Positions 5,209 through 44,254 of a DNA stretch of 64,000 bases are shown in pieces. A program made the translations under genes and the position numbers. The stretch's first letter is position 1, and the number at the start of each line of letters is the position of its first letter. Under the pieces are notes generated by a model. It was not told where the DNA came from. It ran no database searches and was given only the letters and a program-made list of their open reading frames with translations. The stretch is from the NCBI RefSeq assembly GCF_003664325.1, contig NZ_RCDA01000003.1:1-64000 (forward strand), written 5' to 3'. The stretch is from Alkalispirillum mobile. Lineage in GTDB: Bacteria > Pseudomonadota > Gammaproteobacteria > Nitrococcales > Halorhodospiraceae.

Positions 5209-6111
5209 TCAGCGCTTGCGCCGCCGTTTCGGGTAGACCCGATCCCAGCCCTCGGGCTGGTGGGCGAAGCGCTTGTAAGTCCAGAGGTATTGCTCCGGGG
5301 TCTCCCGTACGCACGCCTCGACACCGGCATTGAGTGCCGCCAGCGCGCGATCCGGGTCGGGGTCGTGGATGCCCTCGGGGGCGGGCAGAAAGCGGATGGT
5401 CCAGCGCCCGCCCGTCGCCGCACGGCGGGCATACCCGAAAACCACCGGCGCCCGTTGGCGGGCGGCCAGCTTCACCGGCAGGTCCATGGTCAGGGCCGGG
5501 CGGCCGAAGAAAGGGGCATAGCGTCCCTCATCCTTGGGTGGTTCCTGATCCGGCAGTATTCCCACCACGTCCCCCTGGCGCAGTGCCTTGTACAGGGCGC
5601 GCAAGCCGGCAGTGTTTGCCGGCAAGGCGTGCCCACCCCCGCGGTTGCGGGCTTCGACCATGATCGGCTCCAGCACCGGCTGCCGGGGCGGGCGGTAGAG
5701 GAAGTGCAACGGGTAATGCCGGGCCACCCAGAGGTTGAGCAACTCCCATGACCCCAGGTGCGGGGCGGCAATGATGGCGCCGCGGCCCTCGCGATAGGCC
5801 TGGTCCAGCAACTCCGCCCCCTCCACCCGGTCGATGCGTGCCAGCAATCGCTCCACCGGTTGGCGGAACAGCGCCGGCACCTCCATGATCTGCCGTCCGT
5901 ACTCCCGGCGCGCGGAGCGGGTCAGTGCCGCGAGGGCCTCTTCCGATCGTTCCGGAAAGCAGACAGCCAGGTTGCGTTGCAGTACCTCATCCGCGCGGGT
6001 GCCCGGCCGGCTCAGCCAGGGGCCCAGCACCGCCCCGACGCGGTGCATGGCGCCCACCGGCAGGGTGGCCAGGGCGGTGAGCAGCGATTTCAGCAGGGCG
6101 GCGCGATCCAT
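5209..6111 (-). CDS. LpxL/HtrB-type lysophospholipid (lipid A) acyltransferase
   Basis: Inner-membrane acyltransferase of the HtrB/LpxL/LpxM family, which adds a secondary acyl chain to Kdo2-lipid IVA from acyl-ACP. The protein is 300 aa, matching the family. The catalytic HX4E motif is seen as APHLGSWE with H118 and E123. A substrate-binding motif follows as LPDQEPP, and the C-terminal YLWTYKRF is typical of the family. I chose the ATG at 6111 (MDRAALLK) because it begins the N-terminal hydrophobic helix and has a GAGG ribosome site. The frame stays open 47 codons further, but that sequence looks non-coding. Which acyl position it modifies (LpxL versus LpxM or LpxP) cannot be decided here. 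Confidence 0.85.
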   Translation of the reverse strand: MDRAALLKSLLTALATLPVGAMHRVGAVLGPWLSRPGTRADEVLQRNLAVCFPERSEEALAALTRSARREYGRQIMEVPALFRQPVERLLARIDRVEGAELLDQAYREGRGAIIAAPHLGSWELLNLWVARHYPLHFLYRPPRQPVLEPIMVEARNRGGGHALPANTAGLRALYKALRQGDVVGILPDQEPPKDEGRYAPFFGRPALTMDLPVKLAARQRAPVVFGYARRAATGGRWTIRFLPAPEGIHDPDPDRALAALNAGVEACVRETPEQYLWTYKRFAHQPEGWDRVYPKRRRKR

Positions 6112-35361: not shown

Positions 35362-35685
35362 TTGCTAGCTCCTCGTGTATTCGTGTTTGCCGGGGCGGCC
35401 TGTGCGTTTTATTGAATGTATTGGCCGGACGATGGCGCATATGTTACCGCGTGATGAAGGCTAATGCCGCCCCCGATAGCCAGTTTGTGGCCCCCAACGT
35501 CCAACTTGGTGCGCTGGCGTGCTCCAGCGCTCAATGCGCGCACCACCGGCGGGCGCGACACACCCCGTCGGTACCCGCCGGTTTTATGCAACCTCCTGTT
35601 TTGCCGCCAGGCCTGGCCATTGGCACGCACCTTGTATTGTTTTGCACTGCATCAATGCTGACGGGCTCAGCCCCTGGAGTTGCTC
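35362..35685. promoter_or_regulatory. pckA / ANTAR-regulator divergent intergenic region
   Basis: This 324-base gap has no gene I can support. On the right it carries a sigma-54-like promoter for the regulator (35621-35636), preceded by a possible NtrC half-site CCAACTTGGTGC (35501-35512). On the left an AT-richer segment with TTTTATTGAATGTATTGG (about 35407-35424) probably holds the pckA promoter on the minus strand. Confidence 0.5.
35621..35636 (+). promoter_or_regulatory. Sigma-54-like promoter upstream of the ANTAR regulator
   Basis: TGGCACGCACCTTGTA matches the -24/-12 consensus TGGCACG-N4-TTGCW except for T in place of C at the -12 dinucleotide (GG-N10-GT). Transcription would start near 35648, leaving a short leader to ATG 35686. 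Confidence 0.6.
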
Positions 35686-36267
35686 ATGGTCACCAAAGTC
35701 ATGCTGGTTGATGATTCGCCGGAGCGTTCGGCCTGGCTCGAGGAGTCATTGCAGGTAGCAGGCTTCACCGTGGTGGCCACCGTGCAGGGCGAGGATGACC
35801 TCTACCAGCGGGTGCTCGACGAGGAGCCGGAGGTGGTCATCACCGAGGCGGTATCGGGCAAACGCGACACCCTGGAGGGGCTGTGCAGCCGCGGGGGGCG
35901 GTACCCGGGGCCAGTGATGAACGGCTCCGTTCATCACGACCCGGAACTGATGAGCACAGCCGCGGCGGCAGGGCTCAGTGCCTACGCCGTGGGGGGCGTG
36001 CCGCGCGAAGGGGTGCAGGGGGCGATTCGCCTGGCCATCCGGCAGTATGAGCGCTTCCAGGGGTTGGCCCGCGAGCTGGCGGACACCCGCCGCCAGCTCG
36101 CCGAGCAGCGTGATGTGCACCAGGCCAAGTGCCTGCTGATGGAGCGCGAGGGGCTGGGGGAGGCCGATGCCTACCACCTGCTGCGCCGGCGCGCCATGAA
36201 CAGCGGCCAGCCTATTCCGCGTCTGGCGCGTCGGTTGCTGGCCGACGCCGGCCTCGCCCACGGTTGA
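35686..36267 (+). CDS. NasT-type ANTAR response regulator (transcription antiterminator)
   Basis: RNA-binding regulator of 193 aa. Residues 1-120 form a receiver-like domain starting VTKVMLVDDSPER, but the usual phospho-acceptor Asp position is Glu54 (VVITEAVSGKRDTLE), so phosphorylation control is unlikely. Residues about 128-186 form an ANTAR domain with the signature QAKCLLMEREGLGEADAYHLLRR..AM split over HLLRRRAMNSG. NasT proteins bind two-hairpin leader RNAs and prevent termination upstream of nitrate or nitrite assimilation genes. The downstream transporter leader has exactly such a terminator. No nasS gene is adjacent. Start ATG 35686 with GGAG upstream; an in-frame TTG is two codons earlier. 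Confidence 0.85.
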   Translation: MVTKVMLVDDSPERSAWLEESLQVAGFTVVATVQGEDDLYQRVLDEEPEVVITEAVSGKRDTLEGLCSRGGRYPGPVMNGSVHHDPELMSTAAAAGLSAYAVGGVPREGVQGAIRLAIRQYERFQGLARELADTRRQLAEQRDVHQAKCLLMEREGLGEADAYHLLRRRAMNSGQPIPRLARRLLADAGLAHG

Positions 36268-36286
36268 CCCGCGGCGGTGCATGCTC

Positions 36287-36301
36287 GCACCGCTAGCGTG
36301 C
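36287..36301 (+). promoter_or_regulatory. Possible NtrC enhancer site
   Basis: GCACCGCTAGCGTGC reads GCACC-N5-CGTGC, one base away from the NtrC palindrome GCACC-N5-GGTGC. It lies about 66 bp upstream of the sigma-54-like -24 element, a normal enhancer distance. It could also be a chance match within the hairpin-rich 3' end of the regulator gene. Confidence 0.35.
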
Positions 36302-36366
36302 AGCCGCCCCGCCACGGGGGCTGACTTTCTTTCGTAAAACGATGTTTTAACGGTAAAAGACAAACC

Positions 36367-36382
36367 TGGCACGTAAATTGAA
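36367..36382 (+). promoter_or_regulatory. Sigma-54-like promoter of the transporter-cynS operon
   Basis: TGGCACGTAAATTGAA has a perfect -24 block TGGCACG, N4 spacing and TTG at -12, with A replacing the usual C (GG-N10-GA). It is embedded in a conspicuously AT-rich stretch. The predicted start near 36392 gives a leader of about 145 bases containing the ANTAR-like hairpin and terminator. Confidence 0.65.
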
Positions 36383-36424
36383 TTTAGATTGTTGACATCA
36401 GTGCTCTGTCCGTCGCAGCGCGGC

Positions 36425-36438
36425 ACCCAACGGCGGGT
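36425..36438 (+). promoter_or_regulatory. Candidate ANTAR-target hairpin in the leader
   Basis: ACCC (36425-36428) pairs with GGGT (36435-36438) around the six-base loop AACGGC, which has A at loop position 1 and G at position 4, the known ANTAR RNA signature. The stem is only four pairs, and I could not find a convincing first hairpin beside it (the known targets have two). Confidence 0.4.
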
Positions 36439-36471
36439 TGTGGCAGGCATTGAAACAGGCTTTGCAGGCAA

Positions 36472-36519
36472 GGGCGTCTGGCGTCGGCTTCCGGCCGATG
36501 CCGCGCCCTTTTTTGTTTT
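36472..36519 (+). terminator. Rho-independent attenuator directly before the transporter operon
   Basis: The outer stem GGGCG (36472-36476)/CGCCC (36504-36508) continues into an inner nine-pair stem (36480-36488 with 36494-36502, one G-T), followed by TTTTTTGTTTT. It ends only about 20 bases before the ATG at 36538, so unless it is prevented from forming it would stop transcription before the operon. This is the hallmark of a NasT-type antitermination leader. Confidence 0.82.
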
Positions 36520-36537
36520 CGGCGGGAGGTATGAACC

Positions 36538-37965
36538 ATGAGCAACCGATCACTCAACGACCCGTTCAACCCGGAGGCGGATCTGCGCCACGGGGCGGGT
36601 TGCACCTGCTCCAGCTGCGGCGGCAGCGAACACGCCCACCACGACCACGGGGCCACCCCGGTGGAGCAGGAAACCAACCCGATGCTCGCCGCGAAGCAGG
36701 GCGTCGACAAGGAGGCCATGTTCGACCGGGCCGTGGAGAGCGCGGTGGTGCGCGCCCTGTTCGGTCACCACGACGCCAGCCGGCGCTTCTTTCTGAAGGC
36801 GGTGGGGGCCGGCACCTTCGCCGCGGCGGTGGGCTCCATATTCCCGCTGGACGCGGCCAAGGCCCTGCTCAAGGACAACCTGGGTGACCCGGAGAAGCGC
36901 GACCTGACCGTGGGCTTCGTGCCCATCACCTGCGCCACGCCCATCATCATGGCTCACCCCATGGGCTTCTACGAGCGCTACGGGTTGAACGTGGACCTGC
37001 GCTCCACCGCCGGCTGGGCGGTGGCCCGGGATATGTCCATGAACCGGGAGTATGATGCCTCCCACATGCTCACCCCCATGCCCCTGGCCATGACCATGGG
37101 CACCGGCTCGTCGAGCATGCCTTTCATAATGCCGGCGGTGGAGAACATCAACGGCCAGGCCATCACGCTGCACAACAAGCACAAGGACAAGCGCGACCCC
37201 AGCCAGTGGAAGGGCTTCCGCTTCGCCGTGCCCTTCGACTTCTCCATGCACAACTTCCTGTTGCGCTACTACGTTGCCGAGCACGGCCTGGACCCGGACC
37301 GGGATATCCAGATCCGCGTGCTGCCGCCGCCGGAGATGGTTGCCAACCTGCGGGCCGGCAATGTGGACGGCTACCTGGCCCCCGACCCCTTCAACCAGCG
37401 GGCGGTCTGGGAGGAGGTGGGCTTCATCCACATGCTCACCAAGGAGATCTGGGACGGCCACCCCTGCTGCGCCTTTGCCACCAGCCGCGCCTTTGCCGAG
37501 GAGTACCCGAACAGCTTCGGGGCCCTGTTCAAGGCCATTGTGGAGGCCACCCATTACTCTTCCGAGCACGAGAACCGGGCCGAGATCGCCGAGGCCATCG
37601 CGCCGCGCAACTACCTGAACCAGCCGGTCTCGGTGATTCAGCAGGTGCTGACCGGCCGCTACGCCGACGGGCTGGGCAACGTCAAGGAGGACCCGGACCG
37701 GATCGACTTCGACCCCTTCCCCTGGCACTCCATGGCGGTGTGGATCATGACCCAGATGAAGCGCTGGGGTTACGTGGACGGCGACGTGGACTACAAGGGC
37801 ATCGCCGAAGAGGTCTACCTGGCCACGGAATGCGGCCGGGTCATGCGCGAACTGGGCTACGAGCCGCCGGAGGTCACCTACAAGAGCCACATGATCATGG
37901 GCAAGGAGTTCGACCCCGAGCAGCCGGAGGCCTATGTGGACAGCTTCGAGATCCGGAGGTCTTAA
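36538..37965 (+). CDS. CmpA/NrtA/CynA-family ABC transporter substrate-binding protein with Tat signal
   Basis: Binding protein for nitrate, bicarbonate or cyanate uptake, 475 aa. It starts with an unusual 80-residue leader containing Cys22/24/27 and a His cluster (32, 34, 35, 37). A twin-arginine signal SRRFFLKAVGAG (81-92) and hydrophobic segment follow, so export by Tat and probably membrane anchoring are expected. From residue about 118 the NrtA fold begins (LTVGFVPITCATPIIMA). Similar Cys/His-leader plus RRxFLK architectures occur in proteobacterial CmpA/NrtA homologues. With cynS in the same operon cyanate is the likeliest ligand, but nitrate cannot be excluded. It has a strong GGGAGG ribosome site, immediately after the attenuator. 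Confidence 0.88.
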   Translation: MSNRSLNDPFNPEADLRHGAGCTCSSCGGSEHAHHDHGATPVEQETNPMLAAKQGVDKEAMFDRAVESAVVRALFGHHDASRRFFLKAVGAGTFAAAVGSIFPLDAAKALLKDNLGDPEKRDLTVGFVPITCATPIIMAHPMGFYERYGLNVDLRSTAGWAVARDMSMNREYDASHMLTPMPLAMTMGTGSSSMPFIMPAVENINGQAITLHNKHKDKRDPSQWKGFRFAVPFDFSMHNFLLRYYVAEHGLDPDRDIQIRVLPPPEMVANLRAGNVDGYLAPDPFNQRAVWEEVGFIHMLTKEIWDGHPCCAFATSRAFAEEYPNSFGALFKAIVEATHYSSEHENRAEIAEAIAPRNYLNQPVSVIQQVLTGRYADGLGNVKEDPDRIDFDPFPWHSMAVWIMTQMKRWGYVDGDVDYKGIAEEVYLATECGRVMRELGYEPPEVTYKSHMIMGKEFDPEQPEAYVDSFEIRRS

Positions 37966-37968
37966 GCC

Positions 37969-38808
37969 ATGTTGAGTCGCGAGAACCTCAAGGCCTTCGC
38001 CCTCAGCCTCGCCATGCTCGTGGTGATACTGGGGATCTGGGAATGGAGCGTGGGCGGGGCTTTGATACCCGGTCAGGAAGAGTTGAGCGAGTACGAGATG
38101 CTCACTGGCGGGGGCAGCAGCTCCAGCAGCAACATCCCGGCGCCGTCGGAGGTATTGAGCCTGGCGGTGACGGAGCTCTCCGACCCCTTCTACGACCGGG
38201 GCAGCAACGACAAGGGTATCGGTACGCAGCTGGCCTACTCCATCAGCCGGGTGCTGGCGGGTTACGGCCTGGCGGTGCTGGTGGCCATCCCGCTGGGCTT
38301 CGTGGTGGGCATGTCACCGGTGATGCAGAAGGCGCTTAACCCCTACATCCAGGTGCTGCGGCCCATCTCGCCGCTGGCCTGGATGCCCCTGGCGCTCTAC
38401 ATCATCCAGGACTCCGTGCAGTCGGCGATCTTCGTCATCTTCATCTGTTCCGTCTGGCCCATCCTGGTGAACACCGCCTTCGGGGTGGCGGGGGTCAAGA
38501 GGGACCTGCTGAACGTGGCGCGCACGCTGCAGCTCTCGCCGGTGAAAACCGCCTTCTCGGTGATCCTGCCGGCGGCGGCGCCCACGATCCTCACCGGCAT
38601 GCGTATCGCCATCGGGATCTCCTGGCTGGTCATCGTGGCCGCCGAGATGCTCGTCGGTGGGACCGGCATCGGCTACTTCGTCTGGAACCAGTGGAACAAC
38701 CTGGATCTGACCAGCGTGATCTTCGCGGTGCTCATGATCGGGATCGTCGGCATGATCCTGGACAGCATGCTGGCCATGGCCACCCGGGCCGTGCAGTACG
38801 CCGAATGA
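37969..38808 (+). CDS. Nitrate/cyanate-type ABC transporter permease
   Basis: Inner-membrane permease of the NrtB/SsuC/TauC family, 279 aa, with about six membrane helices. The EAA loop that contacts the ATPase is seen around LLNVARTLQLSPVKTAFSVI. The C-terminal helices include ISWLVIVAAEMLVGGTGIGY, a signature stretch of NrtB-type permeases. It starts three bases after the binding-protein stop. A 97-base gap containing a hairpin (CCCCCGGC/GCCGGGGG, 38866-38886) separates it from the ATPase gene. Confidence 0.92.
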   Translation: MLSRENLKAFALSLAMLVVILGIWEWSVGGALIPGQEELSEYEMLTGGGSSSSSNIPAPSEVLSLAVTELSDPFYDRGSNDKGIGTQLAYSISRVLAGYGLAVLVAIPLGFVVGMSPVMQKALNPYIQVLRPISPLAWMPLALYIIQDSVQSAIFVIFICSVWPILVNTAFGVAGVKRDLLNVARTLQLSPVKTAFSVILPAAAPTILTGMRIAIGISWLVIVAAEMLVGGTGIGYFVWNQWNNLDLTSVIFAVLMIGIVGMILDSMLAMATRAVQYAE

Positions 38809-38905: not shown

Positions 38906-39778
38906 ATGAGTCATGCATTCCTCGAGGTGGAGAGCCTCAAGAAGACCTTTCCCGCCGCCCGCGGCGGGGACCCGCTCACCGTCTTTGACGGAGTGGACTT
39001 CAACATCGAGAAGGGCGAGTTCATCTGTGTGATCGGCCACTCCGGCTGCGGCAAGTCCACCATCCTGAACGTGCTGGCGGGCCTCGACGAGGCCACCGAC
39101 GGCAACGTCTTCATGGATGGCAAGGAGGTGAAGGGCCCCAGCCTGGACCGGGGGGTGATCTTCCAGAACCACAGCCTGCTGCCCTGGAAGAGCGCCCTGG
39201 CCAACGTGGTCTTCGCCACCCAGGCCCGCTGGCCCGGCTGGAGCCGTCAGCAGGTGCGCGATCACGCCATGAAGTACATCCGTCTGGTGGGGCTGGAGGG
39301 CAGTGAGAACCGCCGACCGTCGGAGCTTTCCGGCGGCATGCGCCAGCGGGTGGGTATCGCCCGCGCCTTCGCCATCGAGCCCAAGCTGCTGCTCATGGAC
39401 GAGCCCTTCGGCGCCCTGGATGCCCTGACCCGGGGCACCATCCAGGACGAGTTGCTGCGGATCTGGAGCGACTCCGGGCAGACGGTGTTCATGATCACCC
39501 ACGATGTGGACGAGGCCATCCTGCTCTCCGACCGCATCCTGCTGATGACCAACGGCCCGGAGGCCCACGTGGCCGAGGCGGTGAAGGTGGATATCCCCCG
39601 GCCCCGGGACCGGACCTCCATCATCGAGCACCCCAACTACTACCCGACCCGCAACCACCTGGTCGACTTCCTGGTCCGGCGCTCACGTGAGCTGCAGGGG
39701 CAACGCGGCACCCGCAAAGCGGCCGAGGTCAATGTCGGCGAGGAACCGGAGCCCGGAAAGCGGGTTGCCAATGGCTGA
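38906..39778 (+). CDS. Nitrate/cyanate-type ABC transporter ATP-binding protein
   Basis: ABC ATPase of 290 aa (NrtD/SsuB/CynD class). It has Walker A GHSGCGKST, Q-loop FQNHSLLPW, signature LSGGMRQRVGIARA, Walker B LLLMDEPFGALD and the switch His in MITHDVDEA. It lacks the fused binding-protein domain of cyanobacterial NrtC, so one ATPase gene serves the transporter, probably as a homodimer. The ribosome site GGGAGAG lies ahead of the ATG. cynS follows after 86 bases. Confidence 0.93.
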   Translation: MSHAFLEVESLKKTFPAARGGDPLTVFDGVDFNIEKGEFICVIGHSGCGKSTILNVLAGLDEATDGNVFMDGKEVKGPSLDRGVIFQNHSLLPWKSALANVVFATQARWPGWSRQQVRDHAMKYIRLVGLEGSENRRPSELSGGMRQRVGIARAFAIEPKLLLMDEPFGALDALTRGTIQDELLRIWSDSGQTVFMITHDVDEAILLSDRILLMTNGPEAHVAEAVKVDIPRPRDRTSIIEHPNYYPTRNHLVDFLVRRSRELQGQRGTRKAAEVNVGEEPEPGKRVANG

Positions 39779-39864
39779 ACCGCACCTGCCACGGCGGGTG
39801 AGTACTACCTTGAACGCGGCGTAGCCGTGCTACCTAACCCTTGATCTTCGAGAGGATGACAACC

Positions 39865-40308
39865 ATGAACAAGTCACAAATGCGTGAAGCGATCCTGGCC
39901 GCCAAGCAGTCGAAGGGCATGAGCTGGGAGGCCATCGGCGAGGCCACGGGCATGTCGCCGGTCTTCATCTGCTCCGCCTGTCTTGGCGAGAACAGCCTGC
40001 TGGCCGATCAGGCCGAGAAACTCTGCGGCGTGCTGGGGCTACCCGGCGAGGTGGGGGCGGCTTTGCAGGTCTACCCGGAGAAGGGCCAGCGCTACCAGGA
40101 GATGCTCTCCGACCCGCTGGTCTACCGCCTCAACGAGGTGGTGATGGTCTACGGCGAGACCCTGAAGGAGGTGATCCAGGAGAAGTTCGGTGACGGCATC
40201 ATGAGCGCCATCGACTTCACCATGGAGGTAGACAAGGTGGAGGACCCGAAGGGCGACCGGGTGGTGCTGACCCTGAACGGCAAGTTCCTGCCCTACAAGC
40301 GCTGGTAG
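39865..40308 (+). CDS. cynS: Cyanase (cyanate hydratase)
   Basis: Converts cyanate and bicarbonate to ammonia and two CO2, allowing cyanate to serve as a nitrogen source and detoxifying it; homodecameric, cytoplasmic, 147 aa. The catalytic triad aligns with the E. coli enzyme at a constant offset of eight: R88 and E91 in YRLNEVV and S114 in GIMSAIDF. The ATG at 39865 follows AGAGGA; an in-frame TTG and ATG upstream are weaker. It is last in the operon and ends at a strong terminator. Its presence argues that the preceding transporter imports cyanate (cynABDS-like order of cyanobacteria). Confidence 0.95.
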   Translation: MNKSQMREAILAAKQSKGMSWEAIGEATGMSPVFICSACLGENSLLADQAEKLCGVLGLPGEVGAALQVYPEKGQRYQEMLSDPLVYRLNEVVMVYGETLKEVIQEKFGDGIMSAIDFTMEVDKVEDPKGDRVVLTLNGKFLPYKRW

Positions 40309-40682: not shown

Positions 40683-43600
40683 TCAGCTCTCGGCCTGCTT
40701 CAGAACATAGTCCACCCACTGCCCGGTGAGCTGATCCAGCAACCGGTTCTGCTGCTGGCGGGCAGCCAGGTTGTCCAGGTCGATCCAGGCCAGGGGCTGA
40801 TCCTGCTCGGCGCAGGAGAACACCGGCCGGGTGCGCTTGCCGGTCTCCGGGTCCACCTGCCATTGCAGGCACTGGGCGCAGACGCCCTTGAGCATGCACT
40901 GCATGGGGCTGCCCACGGTGCCGTGGGCCTGCACCCCGGGGGCCAGCCGGCCGCCCAGGTGGTCCTCCAACGCGGCCTGGAAGCCCTTGAGCAGGCCGGT
41001 CCCGCCCATCACCAGGATGCGGTCTACCGAGGACAGCGGGAGGCCGCGCCCCTCGGCGGGCTGGATCTCGCCATCGCCGTAGCGGCGCAGCACGTCCAGC
41101 ATGTCCGTGGCCTGCACCGCGCAGTCGCCGGGGCGCCGGGCCGGGATGAGCGCTTCACCGGCCGTGCACCAGATGATCTGGTCGGCACCGGCCTCCAGCT
41201 CCTCCTGGTGGTCCACGTCGCGGGGTGAGCCGAAGGCGGCCAGGTAGAGCACGCGATTGCCGGCGGCGCGCAGGGCCGAGCCGATGTCGTGCATCACCGC
41301 CGCCCCCCAGCGCCCGGCCACCACCAGCACGGTCTCGTTGGACGGGATGTCGGTGGCGGCGCCGGTGGGCCCCATCAGCACCACCGGGTCGCCCGGTTGC
41401 AGCCGCCCGGCGATGCGCGGCCCCGCCCCCCACTGGAAGACCATCAGGCGGATGCAGTCGCCGTCGATACCGGTCCCGGAGACGGTGAGGATGGGTACCT
41501 GCAGCCGGGTGCCGGCCACCAGCGGCGAGTAGCTCTCGTAGGTCTGCAGGCGGAAGAACTGCCCCGGGCGGAAGCGCCGCGCAGCGGCCGGGGCGCGCAC
41601 CCAGAGCTCGGTGACCGCCGGGTTGTCGCGGTTGACCGACACCACCTCGGCGCGCAGCAGGTCACTGATACGGAGCTGGAAGGCGGTGGGGTCGGGGTTG
41701 GGCACCCGGGCCGGCAGGCTGTCCAGGGCCTTCATGACCTCCGGCCAGCTGTCACGGGCCGAGGCGATGGCACGCACCACGCTCCCCTGGTAGACGGGGT
41801 GGGTGTCGCCCAGGAAGGTCACCGTCCGGCCCTGGCGGCGGTAGCCGGTAAAGGGGCCCACCTCGGGGGATTTGACGTGCTCCGCCTTCTGTACCGGCTG
41901 CAGCCCCTCGCTGTGGAAGGCGTGGGTGCGGTAGTGGTTGTCCTCCAGCTCCAGGCTGCCTGGGTGTTCATGCTCGTAGATGGTGTTGGGCACGGTGCCG
42001 GCGGCCACGAACACCGAGCGGGCGGGCAGCTCCACCTCGTTGTTGGTGGTGAACCAGCGCCCCGCATCATGCTTCATCTGGCGGCAGACCAGGCTGCGGA
42101 TGTGCTGGTGCTCGTCCAGCCGGGCGTGGATCGGGTCCAGCCCCTCGGCGTAGTAAAGCCCCTCCTCGGTGGCCGCCCGCAGCTCCTCGTGGTTACGGGT
42201 GTAGGCGGGGGAGGCGTTCATGCCCTTGCGGTAGGCGATGGTGACCCCGCCCCATTGCTGGATGAGCGGTACGAAGTCCGGTTCACGGTCCTCGGCTGCA
42301 GCCCGCTCCCGTTCCTCGCGGGCCGCCCGGCCGTGGGCCAGGAACTCGTCCAGGATGGTCTGGTCCTCCTCGCCCAGCCGGCCGCGCACGGCCTCCTCGC
42401 CGCGCTCCGCTACCAGGGTCTCGTAGCGCCAGAGCACCTTTTCCACCTGGCGGATGTAATAGGCCTGCACCTCGGTGGCGGTGTCCACGCCGGTGAGCCC
42501 GCCGCCGATGACCACCGCCGGCAGACGCACCTGCAGGGTGGCGATGGAGCTCATCTTGCCGGCGCCGGTGAGCTGCAGCGCCATCAGGAAGTCGTTGGCC
42601 TGGCGCATGCCCCGGGCCAGCGAGTTGCCCATGGGGATAACCCGCGGGTAGCCGGCGCCGGTGGCCACGCAGACGTGGTCGAAGCCCTGCTCCCAGGCAT
42701 CCTCCAGGGTGAGGGTGCCCCCCAGGCGCACGCCGCCGTGGACACTGAAGGTCTGGCGCCGGGCCAGGGTGAGGTAGATGAGTTTGAGGAAGTTCTTGTC
42801 CCAGCGGACGGTGATGCCGTACTCGGCCACCCCGCCGAAACCGAGCAGGATGCGCTCGTCCAGGTCCTCGGCCAGCTGGCCCCAGTCGCGCACCGGGCCC
42901 TTCAGGATGTCCTCGGGCAGCGGCTCCACCTTCAGGCCGTCAATGCCGACCACCTTGCAGCCGGCCATGGTCAGGTGGTGGGCCATGGTGAAGCCGGCGG
43001 GCCCCATGCCGGCCACCAGCACGCGGCGGCCGTTGTGGGGCTGTTGCAGGTACTGCTGGGGCCGCAGCGGGTTCCAGCGTGCCAGCAGGTGGTAGAGTTC
43101 AACCCCCCAGGGCAGGTCCAGCACCTCGGTGAGCACGCCGGTTTCCGCCTGCGGGATGTCGACCGGGTCCTGCTTCTGGTAGATGCAGGATTTCATGCAG
43201 TCGTTGCAGATGCGGTGACCGGTGGCCGGGACCATGGGGTTGTCCACCATGATCATGGCCAGGGCGGCGATCACCCGGCCCTCCCGGCGCAGGGCATTCA
43301 TCTCGCCGATCTTCTCCTCCAGCGGGCAGCCGGTGAGGGTGTTGCCCAGCGGGTCCTGGCGAAAGCCCAGCTCCGGCTGCTTTTTCTTCTCGGGGAAGCC
43401 GCGGGAGCAGAAGTCGCCCGCGTGGTCGTGGCAGAGCACGCAGTAGTGCGCCTCGGCGTGCACATCACGGGCGGACATGCGTGCATCGGTCAGGCTGAAG
43501 CCGTCACGGTTGCGCCGGTCGGCCTCGGTGGCCTCCAGCCGGGGGGCCCCGGGCAGGTCGGCGCGGCGCAGGGGCACCAGACGGGCGTGGTCCACCTTGC

Positions 43601-44177
43601 GAGGCAGACGGAAGGCGGACCAGCCAGCCACCCGGGCGCGGCCCTCGGGGGTTTCCAGGGCGCGGGCGCACCAGTCGGCCAGCTGGCGGATGGCCTGTTC
43701 ATGGGTCTGCTGGTCGCCCAACAGGTTCAGCCCGTAGCGGGCCACGGCCAGTTCCTCGTCGAGATCGGTGGGCAGGCCGGCCCGGCGCAGGGCGGCGGTC
43801 AGCTCCGCGTCCAGGGTGGTGAAGTCGTCCTCCGGCCGGGCCTTGCGGGCCCGCTTCTGGACGAACTCACGTTTGAAGTCGACGATGACATCGTCGGCGG
43901 CCAGCTCCGCGCGCCGGCGGGTCAGCGGCTCGGTGATACCGAAAAGCCCCGCCAGCCACTGCTCCAGGTGGGGGGCGACAGCCAGTAGCAGGCCGCTGTA
44001 GGCCGGTGTGGCCTCGGGGGAGCGGTCGCGAGTAGCCAGCAGCCGGTCGCGCAACTCGGCATCGCGCTCACCCAGCCAGTCGAGAAAGCGGCGGTCCAGT
44101 TCGGCCAGACCCTCCGGGGTCTGCAGACGGGCGAAATCGAGGCCGGCGTTCTCCAGGTGTTGGTTGAGGCTGATCAT
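40683..44177 (-). CDS. 1164-aa iron-sulfur flavoprotein: GltD/NfnB-like plus PyrK/NfnA-like fusion
   Basis: A single polypeptide in three parts. Residues 1-240 are an unassigned helical region. Residues 246-331 hold two Cys sets (C246, C249, C257, C284 and CxxCxxxC at 324/327/331), as in the Fe-S entry domain of GltD/NfnB. An FAD Rossmann motif VAGMGPAGF (388-396) and an NAD(P) motif IGGGLTGVD follow, typical of that class. The C-terminal 300 residues resemble PyrK/NfnA: FRPGQFF, GPTGAATDIP, a nucleotide domain, and [2Fe-2S] cysteines in CMLKGVCAQC plus FSCAEQ. NfnAB transhydrogenases bifurcate electrons between NADPH, NADH and ferredoxin. Here both halves are fused, so an electron-bifurcating or transhydrogenase role is possible but unproven. 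Start ATG 44177 with AGGGA upstream. Confidence 0.75.
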   Translation of the reverse strand: MISLNQHLENAGLDFARLQTPEGLAELDRRFLDWLGERDAELRDRLLATRDRSPEATPAYSGLLLAVAPHLEQWLAGLFGITEPLTRRRAELAADDVIVDFKREFVQKRARKARPEDDFTTLDAELTAALRRAGLPTDLDEELAVARYGLNLLGDQQTHEQAIRQLADWCARALETPEGRARVAGWSAFRLPRKVDHARLVPLRRADLPGAPRLEATEADRRNRDGFSLTDARMSARDVHAEAHYCVLCHDHAGDFCSRGFPEKKKQPELGFRQDPLGNTLTGCPLEEKIGEMNALRREGRVIAALAMIMVDNPMVPATGHRICNDCMKSCIYQKQDPVDIPQAETGVLTEVLDLPWGVELYHLLARWNPLRPQQYLQQPHNGRRVLVAGMGPAGFTMAHHLTMAGCKVVGIDGLKVEPLPEDILKGPVRDWGQLAEDLDERILLGFGGVAEYGITVRWDKNFLKLIYLTLARRQTFSVHGGVRLGGTLTLEDAWEQGFDHVCVATGAGYPRVIPMGNSLARGMRQANDFLMALQLTGAGKMSSIATLQVRLPAVVIGGGLTGVDTATEVQAYYIRQVEKVLWRYETLVAERGEEAVRGRLGEEDQTILDEFLAHGRAAREERERAAAEDREPDFVPLIQQWGGVTIAYRKGMNASPAYTRNHEELRAATEEGLYYAEGLDPIHARLDEHQHIRSLVCRQMKHDAGRWFTTNNEVELPARSVFVAAGTVPNTIYEHEHPGSLELEDNHYRTHAFHSEGLQPVQKAEHVKSPEVGPFTGYRRQGRTVTFLGDTHPVYQGSVVRAIASARDSWPEVMKALDSLPARVPNPDPTAFQLRISDLLRAEVVSVNRDNPAVTELWVRAPAAARRFRPGQFFRLQTYESYSPLVAGTRLQVPILTVSGTGIDGDCIRLMVFQWGAGPRIAGRLQPGDPVVLMGPTGAATDIPSNETVLVVAGRWGAAVMHDIGSALRAAGNRVLYLAAFGSPRDVDHQEELEAGADQIIWCTAGEALIPARRPGDCAVQATDMLDVLRRYGDGEIQPAEGRGLPLSSVDRILVMGGTGLLKGFQAALEDHLGGRLAPGVQAHGTVGSPMQCMLKGVCAQCLQWQVDPETGKRTRPVFSCAEQDQPLAWIDLDNLAARQQQNRLLDQLTGQWVDYVLKQAES

Positions 44178-44254
44178 GGGTCCCTGCGGTGTGCTGTGGA
44201 GGGCCGGGGTGCCGGCGGGCACCCCGTGTGGCGGAACACCGCAGATTAACGCGG

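Follow-up and report, generated by a model that had tools for sequence, protein, structure and literature searches.

The window (the whole 64,000-nucleotide stretch of DNA analysed here) very probably holds an ANTAR-type antitermination switch ahead of an operon for cyanate uptake and cyanase, worked by the REC-ANTAR protein encoded just upstream; from the sequence comparisons described below, we give this reading a probability of roughly 0.86. Studied cyanate operons are switched at transcription initiation (CynF in Pseudomonas, CynR in E. coli, NtcA in cyanobacteria). At this locus, control seems to have shifted to elongation via a NasT-type RNA switch. This would be a natural example of an operon exchanging one type of regulator for another, would extend ANTAR targets to cyanate use, and would point to an ANTAR lineage for which no sensor partner is known. 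Published surveys place ANTAR motifs ahead of many nitrogen genes. Our literature search found no report of ANTAR control or antitermination of cynS or cyanase; the supplementary tables of the main ANTAR survey lay outside this search and may list such a leader under 'nitrate transporter'.

The layout of the locus is given in the table. The ABC transporter subunits of the operon are matches to nitrate-transporter families, and the operon is named a cyanate operon because cynS is part of it (the ATG at 39865 is a possible alternative start codon for cynS). An earlier note, made from the letters of the sequence, had placed an ANTAR protein gene immediately upstream. This gene is real: its product matches PF03861 with 56 bits against a cut-off of 27, has PDB matches to Rv1626, AmiR, EutV and NasR, and is the sole ANTAR match in the genome. 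CynA carries an N-terminal, Cys/His-rich extension of ~80 residues ahead of its Tat-type motif (36538-36830 of the window), similar to that of at least one relative (L134). Convergent with cynS, the minus strand encodes a 1179-aa glutamate synthase small subunit-like protein fused to a ferredoxin-reductase-like part (40683-44222).

Table. Features of the ANTAR gene, the leader and the cyanate operon, in window coordinates
Feature	Position	Strand	Basis or remark
−24/−12 element TGGCACGCACCTTGTA of the ANTAR gene (sigma-54)	35621..35636	+	one mismatch to consensus
Response-regulator-type ANTAR protein, 193 aa, proposed cyn-leader antiterminator	35686..36267	+	PF03861, E 2.5e-15
Glu54 codon of the ANTAR protein, phosphoacceptor position	35845-35847	+	Glu in place of Asp
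NtrC-type enhancer site GCAC-N7-GTGC	36287..36301	+	exact match, 80 nt before −24 element
−24/−12 element of the cyn operon (sigma-54)	36367..36382	+	conserved upstream of P1, 8/8 loci
Outer helix enclosing P1, 5′ arm	36398..36410	+	pairs with 36442-36453; 12 bp, one bulge
P1 hexaloop hairpin CCC-AACGGC-GGG (A1, G4)	36426..36437	+	loop A1/G4 and stem kept in 8/8
Outer helix, 3′ arm	36442..36453	+	pairing with 5′ arm
P2 hexaloop hairpin CAGGC-AAGGGC-GTCTG (A1, G4), proposed antiterminator	36465..36480	+	present in 8/8
Intrinsic terminator, 5′ strand starting with the P2 loop	36470..36514	+	folding; comparison of 8 leaders
cynA, cyanate ABC transporter binding protein (NMT1_2) with Tat-type signal	36538..37965	+	PF13379, 2.2e-91
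cynB, ABC permease	37969..38808	+	TIGR01183, over cut-off
cynD, ABC ATPase	38906..39778	+	TIGR01184, over cut-off
cynS, cyanase	39841..40308	+	TIGR00673, 1.7e-47, over cut-off

The near-consensus −24/−12 element proposed earlier for the cyn operon is present as TGGCACGTAAATTGAA, differing from TGGCACNNNNNTTGCW at a single position (the −12 C), and the predicted transcription start near 36393 yields a leader of 145 nt, in keeping with the earlier estimate. Taken alone, the element is not significant, with 2.2 such sites expected in 64 kb and three found, two of which precede the ANTAR gene and the cyn operon. The case for it rests on its conservation in eight genomes. Two parts can be added to the sigma-54 gate as it was then described. 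The ANTAR gene has a conserved sigma-54 element of its own, with one or two mismatches, at a distance of 60–83 nt from the start of the gene both in the window, where it lies upstream, and likewise in the six relatives with an alignable start; at loci where both regions are examinable, sigma-54 elements stand ahead of the ANTAR gene and ahead of the leader. The other addition is an NtrC-type enhancer site: an exact GCAC-N7-GTGC lies 79–92 nt before the operon's sigma-54 element in five of the eight ANTAR loci, and a copy with one mismatch lies at a similar distance in two more. NtrC is encoded in the genome (over cut-off). By its sequence pattern, this is a sigma-54/NtrC-type arrangement, and the cyn operon is probably controlled by NtrC.

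Within the leader, the loop AACGGC (36429-36434) is located where the earlier note had placed it. It had been described as the one loop with A at position 1 and G at position 4, but a second such hexaloop had been missed: AAGGGC (36470-36475). This second loop overlaps the terminator and supplies the other half of the dual motif. The strong hairpin and T tract are likewise present, and the T6 (36509-36514) ends 23 nt before the ATG at 36538. P2 has a 5-bp stem in the window, and the terminator's 5′ strand opens with the six bases of the P2 loop; sharing these bases, P2 and the terminator are mutually exclusive. The whole window leader folds better than its shuffles (z = −2.4). Since two or more A1/G4 hexaloops arise in 3.4% of shuffled window leaders, the dual hexaloop in this leader alone is only suggestive, and the comparative evidence decides.

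P1 lies together with a small second hairpin within a larger folded domain, closed by a conserved outer helix. In the window, the gap between the minimal P1 and P2 hairpins is 27 nt; measured from the end of the 12-bp outer helix to P2 with its 5-bp stem, it is 11 nt. Hairpin linkers measure 5–12 nt in eut leaders (PMC3369931) and 2–25 nt in surveys, 25 nt being the published upper bound (PMC8164766). The gap thus falls within these limits when taken from the outer helix, but not when taken between the minimal hairpins. The loop ACAGGC (36455-36460) also fits the A1/G4 rule as a candidate P2 and was rejected for want of conservation at this position. An Rfam scan of the leader gave no match at gathering scores and, below them, weak matches to unrelated families.

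The order ANTAR–leader–cynA–permease–ATPase–cynS recurs in seven other genomes of the order, two of which are incomplete in assembly or gene: the G041 operon is broken up by a contig boundary, and the ANTAR gene of G031 is interrupted by an in-frame TAA (near 9376-9379 of L036, between the receiver/coil part and the ANTAR domain, with the leader intact), reflecting either a recent loss or a sequencing error. The earlier note would have counted the lack of a conserved dual hairpin in orthologous leaders against its proposal; both hairpins are found at fixed spacing in all eight leaders with an adjacent ANTAR gene. P1 keeps its CCC/GGG stem (CCU in one leader) and a loop with A1 and G4 in every case. 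P2 keeps its GGC/GYC stem in all eight and the A1 and G4 of its loop in seven, G039 having G at position 1. The loops are separated by 38–41 nt throughout, though much of the remaining leader sequence differs, and the terminator's 5′ strand always contains the P2 loop and 3′ stem, the loop being paired in the terminator. A helix also surrounds P1 in 8/8 leaders. Of the 48 cells that make up its innermost six pairs, 47 are paired, and each position shows two to four pair types; the register was chosen per sequence, and it is clearly above shuffles in four of the eight, the window sequence being no better than its shuffled flanks. The P1 and P2 stems vary too little to show covariation. The eight genomes are related and do not count as eight independent events, their ANTAR proteins forming one lineage in the tree.

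R1, a covariance model of P1 and P2 derived from all eight leaders, recovers each of them at E <= 3e-7 and has one site in the window's own genome, the cyn leader (4e-8). Applied to 54 loci around cynA homologues, R1 matches every one of the eight ANTAR loci at E < 2e-8, and the non-ANTAR loci give no convincing match, except for one decayed leader; beside these remaining loci, no ANTAR gene was found. Four non-ANTAR cyn loci have weaker receiver-type matches beside them, which were disregarded; the one inspected by eye looks like a LuxR-type regulator. The decayed leader precedes a cyn operon without an ANTAR gene in G019 (L089, about 5684-5832, minus strand, counted from the far end), where P1 is kept, the P2 stem is broken and the T tract is interrupted, an apparent decay of the switch after loss of the regulator. 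To judge from these loci, ANTAR gene and leader are gained and lost together.

Outside the order, the weak matches of R1 include the leader of a nirB gene and those of two NrtA-like genes, one of which directly follows a NasT gene. All three have P1, P2 and a terminator, with a clear sigma-54 element in the nirB leader and the NasT-adjacent one. These nirB and NrtA-like leaders come from other gammaproteobacteria and belong to known kinds of NasT target. As R1 matches them, if weakly, the cyn leader is a nitrate-type ANTAR leader placed before a different operon. Among the minority of weak matches inspected in the order and class, those inside coding sequence were set aside as chance.

The earlier note had drawn on NasT-type ANTAR proteins, and the regulator does stand near these in the tree: the cyn ANTARs, together with one further protein from a contig end, form one clade (99/97) beside NasT proteins mostly of the same order, several of which are NasS-neighboured (G026 is a long branch of unsure placement). 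It is not an ordinary NasT, however. Glu occupies the position of the phosphoacceptor Asp in seven of eight cyn ANTARs, against none of the NasS-neighboured NasT proteins, nearly all of which have Asp, and no NasS neighbour other than CynA itself was found in the eight ANTAR loci. A search for NasS elsewhere in the window's own genome recognised none, the other three NMT1_2 matches being two Tat-type binding proteins and a TAXI-like protein. Among the residues with which EutV contacts RNA, the window protein keeps Lys149, Glu160, Tyr164, Arg168, Met172 and Asn173, and five of 11 are changed. The contig-end protein of the clade (L012 / L042, from G035) also has Glu at the phosphosite; no cynS was found in G035, and the target of this ANTAR protein may be some other operon or one off the end of the contig.

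Several known systems share parts with this locus. The NasT/NasS systems of the Paracoccus, Azotobacter and Bradyrhizobium nitrate/nitrite operons have a REC-ANTAR regulator in common with it, and the NasT-type gammaproteobacterial loci L159 and L163 have the same sigma-54 element, similar P1 and P2 loops and a terminator before an nrtA-like or nirB gene. In contrast to NasT/NasS, the target here is a cyanate operon and the regulator forms a separate clade, with Glu at the phosphosite in 7/8 members and no NasS neighbour. The targets of EutV, NasR and AmiR are dual A1/G4 hexaloop hairpins, the second overlapping an intrinsic terminator (PMC3369931, PMC8934654), an architecture that EutV/EutW, AmiR/AmiC and NasR have in common with the cyn leader. 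Unlike in those systems, the regulator here has neither an attached nor a neighbouring histidine kinase, AmiC or NIT sensor, P1 sits inside a longer helix with a second small hairpin, and the P1–P2 gap is longer.

The closest counterpart on the side of the operon is cynABDS of Pseudomonas pseudoalcaligenes, for which the divergently encoded sigma-54 activator CynF is essential (PMC6627978). Structural genes and a sigma-54 promoter are common to both, whereas the operon in the window has no such activator adjoining it and an RNA switch instead. A CynF-like activator adjoins 23 of 38 non-ANTAR cyn-type loci versus 0/7 ANTAR loci in the class and phylum samples (p = 0.004, nominal because the loci are related, and with cynS not shown in all 38). 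Three relatives (L103, L104 and L105) also have second cynA-like paralogues, which, with no ANTAR leader, carry a GACAATGTCGACATTGTC-like palindrome, a sigma-54 element and an adjacent sigma-54 activator.

The sequences themselves show these parts, that they are conserved and that they occur together. From them, we infer protein–RNA binding, read-through, NtrC control and a signal that would act together as follows. Sigma-54 RNA polymerase, probably activated by NtrC in nitrogen shortage, would start near 36393. When the regulator is absent, the nascent leader would fold the P1 domain and then the terminator (36470-36514), stopping transcription before cynA. When it is present and active, the REC-ANTAR protein would bind the P1 hexaloop and then the P2 hexaloop; P2 would capture bases of the terminator's 5′ strand, thereby blocking the terminator and allowing polymerase to read into cynABDS. 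The regulator would be a descendant of the NasT lineage that has lost its NasS partner and, in most members, replaced the phospho-accepting Asp with Glu. With a conserved sigma-54 element ahead of the ANTAR gene as well, both regulator and target would need nitrogen shortage, as in a feed-forward AND gate. Nitrate assimilation in Paracoccus becomes constitutive when NasS is lost (PMC3795266), which suggests that a NasS-free ANTAR protein may be controlled mainly by its own amount, following its own sigma-54 element. Our leading guess is that the switch is set by regulator amount, or by a ligand sensed without phosphorylation. The ANTAR protein might also be a cyanate-specific sensor that replaces CynF, either as a phosphorylation-independent pseudo-receiver sensing cyanate directly, or as a protein held inactive by ligand-free CynA; we think this unlikely. 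CynA belongs to the NasS protein family and, given its Tat-type signal, would already be folded before leaving the cytoplasm, where it could act like NasS.

Other readings of the locus have to account for the same leader. The hairpin and T tract might be a mere terminator of the ANTAR gene, downstream of which they lie on the same strand, with the cyn operon switched by sigma-54 and NtrC alone and the hexaloops incidental; many non-ANTAR cyn operons do have a sigma-54 element and no terminator leader. This is very improbable, since the terminator is downstream of the operon's own sigma-54 element and only 23 nt from the start codon, the leader is found only alongside the ANTAR gene, and all eight leaders retain two A1/G4 hexaloops at a constant distance (loop 2 with G1 in one) while other letters differ. 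We give even less credence to a real antitermination switch worked by a different factor (an RNA-binding protein, a small RNA or a metabolite at the P1 junction), with the ANTAR gene serving something else. Such a factor would suit the larger P1 domain, whose conserved outer helix and second small hairpin canonical ANTAR targets do not need, but it fits poorly with A1 and G4 in both loops, with the shared gain and loss of gene and leader, and with a genome in which a single ANTAR match meets a single R1 site.

Ordinary NasS–NasT nitrate sensing could also drive a nitrate/cyanate transporter, in which case nitrate would be the signal and NasS would be encoded at another locus. The matches of the transporter subunits to nitrate-transporter families, the likeness of the leader to those of nitrate/nitrite genes, and the sister position of the ANTAR clade to a group including NasS-neighboured NasT of the same order all speak for this. 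We nevertheless consider it quite unlikely given the Glu at the phosphosite, the cynS gene in the operon, the lack of a NasS-like protein adjoining the gene in the eight loci, the identity of the other three NMT1_2 proteins in the genome, and the finding of no NirB over cut-off there. The antitermination switch worked by the upstream REC-ANTAR protein is the reading we prefer. Elsewhere in the same genome, contig C1 holds two further Tat-type NMT1_2 ABC transporter loci (L208, L209), one of which is followed by a NifA-like sigma-54 activator.
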